Source: Campylobacteraceae bacterium (GTDB lineage Bacteria; Campylobacterota; Campylobacteria; Campylobacterales; Sulfurovaceae). From it: a DNA stretch of 40,243 bases. Where the stretch lies: assembly GCA_027080995.1 (NCBI GenBank), contig JALWNT010000046.1, forward strand, positions 1 through 40,243, read 5' to 3'. The position numbers were made by a program, and so were the translations under genes. The notes under the pieces are model-generated. The model was not told the DNA's origin. It worked only from the letters and a program-made list of their open reading frames with translations, and made no database searches. Positions 7,656-32,771 of this stretch are shown here, in pieces. Each line of letters opens with the position of its first letter. Position 1 is the stretch's first letter.

Positions 7656-9701
7656 TTGATCGCAATATCTACTCTTCAATCTTTCCCGTTTTTCAAAAGC
7701 AAACTGGCCAAACGCCTCAGTCTTTACATTTTTGCTATCACCGTTGCGACCGCCCTACTGGTCACCGCACTCCACGTCGTCTGGGAATTCCATCATGAAA
7801 AAGAACTACTTCGCAAAGAGTTCCGTCAGGTTGAAAAAGTCAATCTTCCCAGCATCAAAGCAAATCTGTGGATACTCGACATCCCCGCTTTGCAAACAAT
7901 CCTGGGAGGACTGCTTCACAATCGAAATTTCGTCTATTTCAAACTGACCGACGATCAAGGGAAGAGACTTCTAGAAGTAGGGAAACTCCCTCGTAAAAAT
8001 TTTCTACTTGAAAAAATACCTCTTTACCACGACAATGGCTATGGCAAGCAGATCTACATCGGTACACTCACCATGGTCGTCACCACCCGATACATTTATG
8101 AAAATATAATCCGCAATACACTGACTACTCTGGGGATTTTACTCATCACAATGCTCCTGACGGTGCTTTTCATACTCTTTCTGGTCTGGTCACTTATCTC
8201 GAAGCATCTTTTGGCTATTCAGAGCTATACGAACAAAATTCGTTTCGAGGAAGAGATCCCACCTCTGCAACTGGAGCGAAAAGAGAATCAATGGACACGG
8301 GATGATGCCTTGAGCTCTCTCGTCAATGCCATTAATAAAATGCAAAAAATGATCCGGGATTCCTACGCCCGACTGGAGTATCAATCCCTCCACGATCCTC
8401 TCACCGATCTCCCCAACCTCCGATCGCTCAGACTCGATCTTTCCCAACGCATCAAAGAGTGCGAGATAAGCGGAAACATCGCGGCACTTTACTTTATCGA
8501 TCTCGACTCCTTCAAAATTCTCAACGATTCGTTGGGGCATACGGTGGGCGATGCCGCTTTGACGGAAGTGGCCAAACGACTGAAACGGCTGGAAAATCGC
8601 GGAGTACGTGTGTATCGCATCGGGGGCGATGAGTTTCTGCTCCTGACAAAAGCATTAAGCAATAATCCGGAAAAAACCCGGGAACTCGCTCAAAAACTCG
8701 CCGAAGAGATCCGGGGTATTTTCGATGAAAAATTCGAACTTGACGGAAAGTCTTTCAAAATTACAGCCGGCATCGGTGTCAAACTTTTCCAAAAAGGGCA
8801 GGATATTGAAACGATCATCAAACATGCCGACAATGCCCTCTACAAAGCCAAAGAGAAGAACCGTAATGTAATCGCTTTTTTCCATGAGTGTATGCAATCA
8901 AGCACTGATAAAAAGCTTGAGATAGAACAATACCTGCATCATGCAATCCACAACGATGAATTTATCGTGCACTATCAGCCCAAATACGATCGGCATCGAA
9001 AACTCCGTTCCGCAGAAGCCCTCACTAGACTCCGACGGAAGGACGGGAGACTGATTCCTCCCGGGGAGTTTATCCCCTATGCGGAGGAGACAGGGATGAT
9101 TCTCGATATCGATCATCGGATCATCCCCAAGGTATTTAAATTTGTTCTCGAAAACCGATCAATAATGGAAAATGCAGGAATGGAGAGCATCGCAATCAAC
9201 ATCTCTCCCGCGCAGTTCATGATGGCGGATTTCGTCCAATTTATCGTTTCCGAAGCCAAACGCTTCTCCATCGATCCCCATTTTATCATTCTGGAAATCA
9301 CGGAAGAGACCGTCGTTTCCAATGCCGAATACGCTATGGAAACGATGCTCGAATTGAAACGCCATGGATTTCGATTTTCCATCGACGATTTCGGGACCGG
9401 GTATTCATCCTTACGCTATCTTATGAATTTTCCGCCCGACGAATTGAAAATCGATAAATCTTTCGTAGATCATATTCCCGAAAACGACCGCAGTGTCGCC
9501 ATAGTACGAACCATCATTACGCTTGCAAAAACTCTGCATCTTACGGTCGTGGCCGAAGGGGTCGAGAGAGAAGAGCAGTTCCGAACCCTTTATCGATACG
9601 GCTGTACTCTCTTCCAGGGCTACCTATTTTCCCGGCCCCTTCCTGAAGAAGAGTTCCTCCGCCTCCTCACAGAAAGGGGCTATGCTTCCGATCGAAAATG
9701 A
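7656..9701 (+). CDS. membrane c-di-GMP enzyme with GGDEF and EAL domains
   Basis: 681 residues. A TTG start is chosen because GTGAGG lies eight bases upstream. Order: membrane segment about 21-43, extracytoplasmic sensor about 45-152, second membrane segment about 157-180, linker, GGDEF domain about 240-410 and EAL domain about 420-670. The GGDEF motif (323-327) is intact, but the RxxD inhibitory site is replaced by NRGV (314-317). The phosphodiesterase residues are present: EAL 454-456, Asn515, Glu547, Asp577-Asp578, Lys598, Glu634, Gln654. Both synthesis and hydrolysis are therefore possible; which dominates is unknown. It is probably co-transcribed with the preceding binding protein. Confidence 0.95.
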   Translation: MIAISTLQSFPFFKSKLAKRLSLYIFAITVATALLVTALHVVWEFHHEKELLRKEFRQVEKVNLPSIKANLWILDIPALQTILGGLLHNRNFVYFKLTDDQGKRLLEVGKLPRKNFLLEKIPLYHDNGYGKQIYIGTLTMVVTTRYIYENIIRNTLTTLGILLITMLLTVLFILFLVWSLISKHLLAIQSYTNKIRFEEEIPPLQLERKENQWTRDDALSSLVNAINKMQKMIRDSYARLEYQSLHDPLTDLPNLRSLRLDLSQRIKECEISGNIAALYFIDLDSFKILNDSLGHTVGDAALTEVAKRLKRLENRGVRVYRIGGDEFLLLTKALSNNPEKTRELAQKLAEEIRGIFDEKFELDGKSFKITAGIGVKLFQKGQDIETIIKHADNALYKAKEKNRNVIAFFHECMQSSTDKKLEIEQYLHHAIHNDEFIVHYQPKYDRHRKLRSAEALTRLRRKDGRLIPPGEFIPYAEETGMILDIDHRIIPKVFKFVLENRSIMENAGMESIAINISPAQFMMADFVQFIVSEAKRFSIDPHFIILEITEETVVSNAEYAMETMLELKRHGFRFSIDDFGTGYSSLRYLMNFPPDELKIDKSFVDHIPENDRSVAIVRTIITLAKTLHLTVVAEGVEREEQFRTLYRYGCTLFQGYLFSRPLPEEEFLRLLTERGYASDRK

Positions 9702-32021: not shown

Positions 32022-32049
32022 AGAAAAATTCGGTCGGGAAAACCGACCG
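32022..32049 (-). terminator. intrinsic terminator of hup
   Basis: On the minus strand CGGTCGG-TTTTC-CCGACCG, a perfect 7-bp stem, then AATTTTTCTT. It lies 20 bases after the hup stop, between convergent hup and dnaJ. Confidence 0.88.
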
Positions 32050-32069: not shown

Positions 32070-32345
32070 TTAGGCGACGACGTCTTTGACGGTTTTGCCG
32101 AACTTGAATTTGGGAGCGGTGTGAGCAGGTTTGGTATAGGTGCGGTCCGTACCGGGTACCTTGCCGCTCTTTTCAGGAACTTCCACTGTGCTGAAGGTTC
32201 CGAAGCCGACGAGGGTGACGCTCTTTTTCTGTTTGAGGGCTTCGGTGACCGCTTCGGTAAATGCCTTTATAGCTTTTTCAGCTGCGGCTTTGCTCTCGTA
32301 GCCCCCTTTCTCTTTGACCAGTTCGACGAATTCGTCTTTTTTCAT
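32070..32345 (-). CDS. hup: HU-family DNA-binding protein
   Basis: Nucleoid protein that bends and compacts DNA. 91 residues from the ATG at 32345 (AAAGGA upstream; the start MKKDEFVELV fits the family). In-frame ATGs further up give a non-homologous 17-residue extension over the promoter. HU landmarks: helical N-terminus, LVGFGTFSTVEVP, and an arm region in which the usual GRNPQTG is replaced by KVPGTDRTYTKPAHTAPKFKFGKTVK. It has its own likely promoter at 32370-32396 and, further upstream, a c-di-GMP riboswitch with a terminator. Confidence 0.93.
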   Translation of the reverse strand: MKKDEFVELVKEKGGYESKAAAEKAIKAFTEAVTEALKQKKSVTLVGFGTFSTVEVPEKSGKVPGTDRTYTKPAHTAPKFKFGKTVKDVVA

Positions 32346-32369
32346 ATTTGTGTCCTTTTCCATATTTGA

Positions 32370-32396
32370 TTGATACCCATTTATTATAGGTATCAA
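32370..32396 (-). promoter_or_regulatory. hup -10 element inside a perfect dyad
   Basis: TTGATACC (32370-32377) and GGTATCAA (32389-32396) form a perfect 8-bp inverted repeat with an 11-base centre. The centre holds the minus-strand TATAAT (32383-32388). The dyad could be an operator for an unidentified regulator or an RNA hairpin in transcripts coming from upstream. Confidence 0.55.
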
Positions 32397-32434
32397 CTTC
32401 TTATAAGGCGTTTAAAGCACAACGCCCACAGCCC

Positions 32435-32487
32435 AAAAAGCCGGAGGGGGAGGGGAACCGCACCCTTTCTCCCAGGATTTCTCCGGC
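32435..32487 (-). terminator. riboswitch-linked intrinsic terminator
   Basis: On the minus strand GCCGGAG (32481-32487) pairs with CTCCGGC (32440-32446), followed by TTTTT. Inside it, GGGAG/CTCCC and GGG/CCC extend the stem with bulges. It starts 17 bases after the aptamer and ends 90 bases before hup, which is the expected place for an expression platform. Confidence 0.8.
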
Positions 32488-32504
32488 ACTCTACACCGCA
32501 AAAT

Positions 32505-32589
32505 GCAACCCGGCTATCTCCCCTCTATCCGAATCCATAGGAGAGACCCGTGGCTTTCCGTCCCAGTCTCACGACAGGTTTGGCCGCGC
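32505..32589 (-). ncRNA. c-di-GMP-I riboswitch (GEMM-I aptamer)
   Basis: Minus-strand landmarks in order: GGCCAAACC; a hairpin CCTGTC-GTGA-GACTGG with a GNRA tetraloop (32563-32578); GGGACGGAAAGCC; a second stem closed by CTCTCC (32540-32545) and GGGGAG (32518-32523); and the conserved tail ATAGCCGGGTTGC. These match the core of Vibrio Vc2-type GEMM-I RNAs, including the GNRA loop that docks in the second stem. The closing helix P1 is weak by eye. It lies after the tRNA-Leu terminator and ahead of a terminator and hup. Confidence 0.82.
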
Positions 32590-32600
32590 TTATAATAAAT

Positions 32601-32685: not shown

Positions 32686-32771
32686 TGGTGCGGCAGAGAG
32701 GATTTGAACCTCCACGGGCTTGCGCCCACCAGCCCCTCAAGCTGGCGTGTCTACCGTTCCACCACTGCCGC
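32686..32771 (-). tRNA. tRNA-Leu, anticodon GAG
   Basis: 86 bases with encoded CCA. Acceptor GCGGCAG/CTGCCGC, anticodon stem CCAGC/GCTGG around loop TTGAGGG (anticodon GAG, reading CTC and CTT), long class II variable arm GGGC-GCAA-GCCC, and T-arm GGAGG-TTCAAAT-CCTCT. The long variable arm confirms a leucine-type tRNA. CTC codons are common in the neighbouring genes. Confidence 0.97.

Follow-up and report, generated by a model that had tools for sequence, protein, structure and literature searches.

The window, the whole 40,243-nucleotide stretch of DNA analysed here (G000:C46:1-40243), belongs to a genome, G000, of 1.97 Mb in 127 contigs. The source organism is a Nitratifractor (Campylobacterota); the named records with the HU closest to the window HU are Nitratifractor MAGs, and a genus mate, G011, which we take to be Nitratifractor salsuginis, has a single-contig genome of 2,101,285 bases. 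On the minus strand of the window, the gene order is ATP synthase subunit c, tRNA-Leu(GAG), a c-di-GMP-I (GEMM-I) riboswitch aptamer and hup, with dnaJ convergent from the opposite side. The tRNA-Leu gene (32686..32771, minus strand; found by ARAGORN and Rfam) lies directly upstream of the aptamer and serves as the locus marker in relatives, where it precedes hup in L074, L076-L079, L080, L081, and L086. The presumed target of the riboswitch, hup (32070..32345, minus strand), is an open reading frame for an HU protein of 91 amino acids that matches PF00216 over the full domain (residues 1-90 of 91; 82.7 bits against a cut-off of 22.4; E = 2.3e-23). An intrinsic terminator follows hup (32031..32049, minus strand; z -4.0 against shuffles), and dnaJ lies past it; this terminator argues against an antisense action on dnaJ, which we considered after PMC9943018.

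The aptamer occupies 32501..32594 on the minus strand, where the initial annotation had recognized a GEMM-I core and proposed a scan with RF01051. That scan bears out the reading: the match at 32594-32501 covers the whole model and scores 53.4 bits against a curated cut-off of 35 (E = 7.9e-8, computed for a search of the 40 kb window with 4227 families). Bases that hardly vary within the class are retained, and alignment to the model places a G at 32584 (model position 11), an A at 32557, and a C at 32505, all on the minus strand, which we take to be G20, A47, and C92 in the numbering of Vc2. An A at the G20 position marks the cAMP-GMP (GEMM-Ib) type, and a G at the A47 position marks the c-di-GMP-I-GGC variant. 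Because the G, A, and C contacts are canonical, the window aptamer is, as judged from its sequence, a canonical c-di-GMP-I aptamer and neither the cAMP-GMP type nor the GGC variant.

Structure points the same way. For each of the five hup-linked copies, the isolated aptamer core adopts the class structure at minimum energy. Among 32 Campylobacterota copies of the aptamer family, both partners changed in 14 of 21 pairs, with 96% paired, and the covariation of 0.465 (0.230 in shuffles) was equalled in none of 500 shuffles, so that P2 and P3 show compensatory changes in a test that scored the very alignment used to predict the helices. The genome of the window species holds four RF01051 copies, the hup copy and three others, all above the cut-off. 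It also holds 15 GGDEF matches, one of them within the window (8388-8867), and c-di-GMP signalling is therefore expected in this organism. The GGDEF match in the window lies within an open frame of 709 codons that probably encodes a diguanylate cyclase, on the aptamer's own contig.

The same order of tRNA-Leu(GAG), aptamer, and hup, which the initial annotation had suggested looking for in related genomes, is present in four more Nitratifractor species (G001, G002, G006, and G008), making five with the window species; the four relatives also appear as named records (L105, L103, L098, and L099). The distance from the end of the aptamer to the start of hup is 155-156 bases, and 113 in G008. hup follows five of the 75 aptamers with examined surroundings across genus, family, and order, those of these same five species. 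When 84 hup loci (76 from named Campylobacterota records) were searched with the R1 model, only the four known relatives gave significant E-values. When 150 genomes from the family were searched as DNA, the complete element turned up in G000, G001, G002, and G006 alone, and its 3' part in G011. The R1 model found no match in G005, G009, or N. salsuginis (G011). Decayed remnants of an aptamer at the N. salsuginis locus, or in G005 and G009, were rejected, since Rfam gave nothing there with E up to 5. The closest relative of the window species, G005, has tRNA-Leu followed by hup without the aptamer at two loci. These two loci, L074 (C9) and L086 (C181), differ from each other, and one encodes an HU identical to the window HU; they reflect either a real duplication or a mixed bin.

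Since the aptamer is absent in G005, G009, and N. salsuginis, it is dispensable. Its carriers do not form a clean clade on the DnaK tree, for which one gain followed by losses would be the simplest history. Where the aptamer is kept, it is well conserved: between the window species and G001, G002, and G006, identity is 79-85% for the aptamer with its promoter and 78-79% for the platform, compared to yardsticks of 53-55% for hup third positions, 43-68% for the spacer between tRNA and aptamer, and 36-39% for the sequence 3' of hup. By this comparison of sequences, the association of aptamer and hup is real and selected, with conservation above the neutral level, but it is narrow, confined to five species of one genus.

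Two putative promoters flank the switch, their positions read from the sequence only. The upstream one, TATTAT (32592..32597, minus strand), is a probable -10 element for the aptamer transcript, with a T-rich stretch upstream and a predicted start near 32585. All five carriers have a T-rich stretch and a -10-like motif at a similar distance ahead of the aptamer, the motif being TATCAT in G001 and G002, TATTAT in G006, and a weak TAGGAT in G008; the aptamer-free G011 also has TATTAT at the equivalent place. Because a start at TATTAT would place the RNA 5' end at the aptamer core or slightly ahead of it, there would be little room for a P1 stem, and by inspection no P1 pairing was recognized in the hup-linked aptamers. 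An AU-rich hairpin upstream of the aptamer, considered as a terminator for the tRNA, was rejected on inspection as not conserved.

The downstream promoter is that of hup itself, with TATAAT at 32388-32383 (minus strand). The initial annotation had noted that hup has its own -10 downstream of the switch, and this motif is found in four of the five carriers. CTATAAT adjoins tRNA-Leu with or without the aptamer and is absent in G008; because it also occurs at aptamer-free tRNA-Leu loci, the hup promoter probably predates the riboswitch. An inverted repeat, TTGATACC...GGTATCAA (32396-32370, minus strand), spans the hup -10, and a related repeat is present in the aptamer-free hup promoter of L086; it is a possible operator. 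Given that TATAAT lies downstream of the hairpin described below, the window riboswitch can affect only read-through. In all four carriers with a downstream hup promoter, the predicted layout is one in which a read-through transcript is all that the switch can supply or hold back, and wherever that promoter remains, the window species included, the riboswitch would be a secondary input to hup. In G008, TANNNT occurs nowhere between aptamer and hup, and the hup leader must therefore include the aptamer or use an unrecognized promoter; in this species, hup may be expressed mainly through the riboswitch leader.

Between the aptamer and hup lies a terminator-like hairpin, GCCGGAG...CTCCGGC followed by TTTTT (32435..32487, minus strand), the candidate expression platform. 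The hairpin spans 32487-32440 and the T run 32439-32435, with the hup ATG at 32345, 90 bases past the T run, exactly as the initial annotation had it. The hairpin folds with -22.9 kcal/mol, but its z against shuffles is only -1.4, and 17 of 200 shuffles are as stable. In the window it is a candidate switch, with weaker T runs in three relatives and a missing hairpin in the fourth: G001 and G006 have TTTT behind a stem that is shorter or contains mismatches, G002 has TTCT, and no comparable hairpin or terminator was found between aptamer and hup in G008.

A candidate switching helix, suggested by folds, would pair GGGUU in the aptamer 3' strand (32511-32507) with AAUCC (32479-32475), spanning 32475..32511 on the minus strand. 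The window has this reduced form of a seven-pair version, GGGUUGC/GCAAUCC, that is present in G001, G002, and G006; in G002 and G006, the ligand-free minimum uses the longer helix and breaks the aptamer. Measured against shuffled platforms of 80 bases, competition with the aptamer is unusual in G002 (fraction 0.01) and G006 (0.03) and not unusual in G001 (0.15), G008 (0.57), or the window (0.62); for the window species, the fraction covers 0.62-0.99 over all comparisons. The alternative pairing is weak evidence because, by a back-of-envelope estimate, a seven-base match is expected by chance about once per four platforms.

Further toward hup, between the terminator and the hup promoter, alignments reveal a small conserved hairpin, GGCGTT...AACGCC (32407..32426, minus strand). 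This block is retained in the aptamer-free N. salsuginis, where G011 matches element positions 141-273. At that locus (L081), the stretch from tRNA-Leu to hup has TATTAT and the hup-proximal block and no aptamer; between the two lies another stretch, AATTTGTCGTGA...TTCACGACAATT, which is highly self-complementary and matches no Rfam family. We also considered a small open reading frame between aptamer and hup: its GTG frame is open in G001, but a one-base deletion shifts it in G006, so it is not conserved and was rejected.

The best reading of these features, and one we think probable, is that a canonical c-di-GMP-I riboswitch forms the leader of a second, upstream-started, c-di-GMP-gated hup transcript. 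RNA polymerase would start at the TATTAT promoter, past tRNA-Leu and ahead of the aptamer. With c-di-GMP bound, the 3' strand of the aptamer would be held in helix P3, the GCCGGAG...CTCCGGC hairpin would form, and transcription would end; with the aptamer unbound, its 3' strand and the 3' strand of the terminator would pair elsewhere, and some transcripts would continue into hup. c-di-GMP would lower the extra supply of HU (an OFF switch), with the basal supply coming from the downstream hup promoter. In G008, where neither a downstream promoter nor a terminator is recognizable, the main hup mRNA would itself carry the aptamer and be controlled directly by it through another platform. The aptamer, its contact bases, its conservation, and its position are observed; we infer for this model that the aptamer binds c-di-GMP, that transcripts read through into hup, that control runs in the OFF direction, and that the HU level responds. 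The OFF direction, in which c-di-GMP stops read-through, is a guess by analogy with classical logic, with chances about even or slightly better.

A signal-controlled second transcript of hup is what the initial annotation had envisaged, and it remains the best fit. The aptamer class, its c-di-GMP-type contact bases, the hup neighbour, the second promoter, and the conservation in five species are supported; the hairpin as a working switch, the read-through, and the direction of control are hypothetical parts. The broader idea that c-di-GMP sets the amount of HU by means of the riboswitch, as an additional input in most carriers and as the main hup control in the G008 lineage, we advance tentatively, at somewhat less than an even chance.

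Other readings of the locus have to be weighed against a gated hup leader. The aptamer and terminator could instead make a self-contained short RNA that acts elsewhere or sponges c-di-GMP, with hup transcribed only from its own promoter, and the good T run on the window terminator and the conserved TATAAT of hup would suit such an arrangement. The relatives argue otherwise: the T run is poor in G001, G002, and G006, the element is tied to hup in five of five species, and G008 still keeps the aptamer 113 bases from hup with neither a terminator nor a recognizable hup promoter, so that we regard a separate short RNA as unlikely. It is less likely again that the window lineage has only a relic of the switch, with a hairpin that now terminates regardless of ligand and shields the hup promoter from transcription of tRNA-Leu or the aptamer. 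Consistent with a relic, the window platform competes with the aptamer no more than chance, and G005 and N. salsuginis lack the aptamer, the latter retaining part of the hup-proximal block; a relic does not sit well with a window aptamer that keeps the near-invariant bases of its class and is conserved above the neutral level.

The least probable of these readings, by far, is a variant aptamer with another ligand, either cAMP-GMP or the unknown ligand of c-di-GMP-I-GGC. Under lax filters, the GGC family (RF03167) does give the best match in the clan, but its 57.4 bits fall below the cut-off of 59, and the G that defines this variant is an A at 32557. For the cAMP-GMP type, an A is required at the equivalent of G20, and 32584 is a G.

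A c-di-GMP-gated leader on hup would place a known riboswitch class on what is apparently an undescribed target. We found no report of a c-di-GMP riboswitch at hup in the open-licence literature, where the word HU itself is not searchable. Because HU shapes the whole chromosome, such a riboswitch would extend c-di-GMP control to global DNA packing; if this is true, control by c-di-GMP reaches beyond surface and motility genes, and switching between motile and sessile states would change how the chromosome is packed, by way of RNA. An effect of c-di-GMP on HU levels via RNA is plausible, and with a small locus and five naturally occurring variants that are not alike in promoter and terminator, the question lends itself to tests in vitro.

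Within Nitratifractor and its family, the c-di-GMP-I aptamers away from hup, found in the same genomes, are of the same subtype, with C-G replacing G-C next to the core. Unlike the window copy, they mostly lack a comparable terminator directly 3'. Where neighbours of the other aptamers in the genus were checked, they include targets of the usual kind, a gene with a PilJ sensor domain (G000 and G009) and one for a cadherin-like surface protein (G008); the genes after the remaining two G000 aptamers have no Pfam match. Another unusual neighbour occurs in two species of a different genus of the family, where c-di-GMP-I aptamers lie 262-269 bases upstream of pdxJ, a gene of vitamin B6 synthesis (L043 and L045; G021:C81 and G030:C205). 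At L005, two c-di-GMP-I aptamers on opposite strands face away from each other, with about 170 bases between them, before divergent genes (G021:C37, 9102-9177 minus and 9350-9438 plus). Tandem aptamer matches spaced by about 100-150 bases occur in other genomes of the family, two of them double (G146:C6 400703/400851 and G152:C8 3664/3817) and one triple (G095:C204 1202/1305/1408).

The hup aptamer resembles Vc2 of Vibrio cholerae and RF01051 generally in sequence, fold, and ligand-contact bases, and the window also has a terminator-like hairpin downstream. It differs from other RF01051 riboswitches in its neighbour, which is hup and not a gene for motility, adhesion, or signalling; the hup group further has no recognized P1 and carries a second promoter between switch and gene. 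The c-di-GMP-I riboswitch Bc1 of Bacillus thuringiensis is reported to have a long, two-terminator expression platform (PMC11218506); the two systems share a class I aptamer followed by a long platform, and differ in gene and lineage. Direct binding of c-di-GMP to nucleoid proteins is reported for CdbA (PMC7156744) and H-NS (PMC10657408), and likewise for Lsr2 (PMC10808224). What these cases have in common with the locus described here is a c-di-GMP input to nucleoid or DNA-organizing proteins; in them the protein itself is the target of c-di-GMP, whereas here control would be exerted via RNA on the synthesis of HU.
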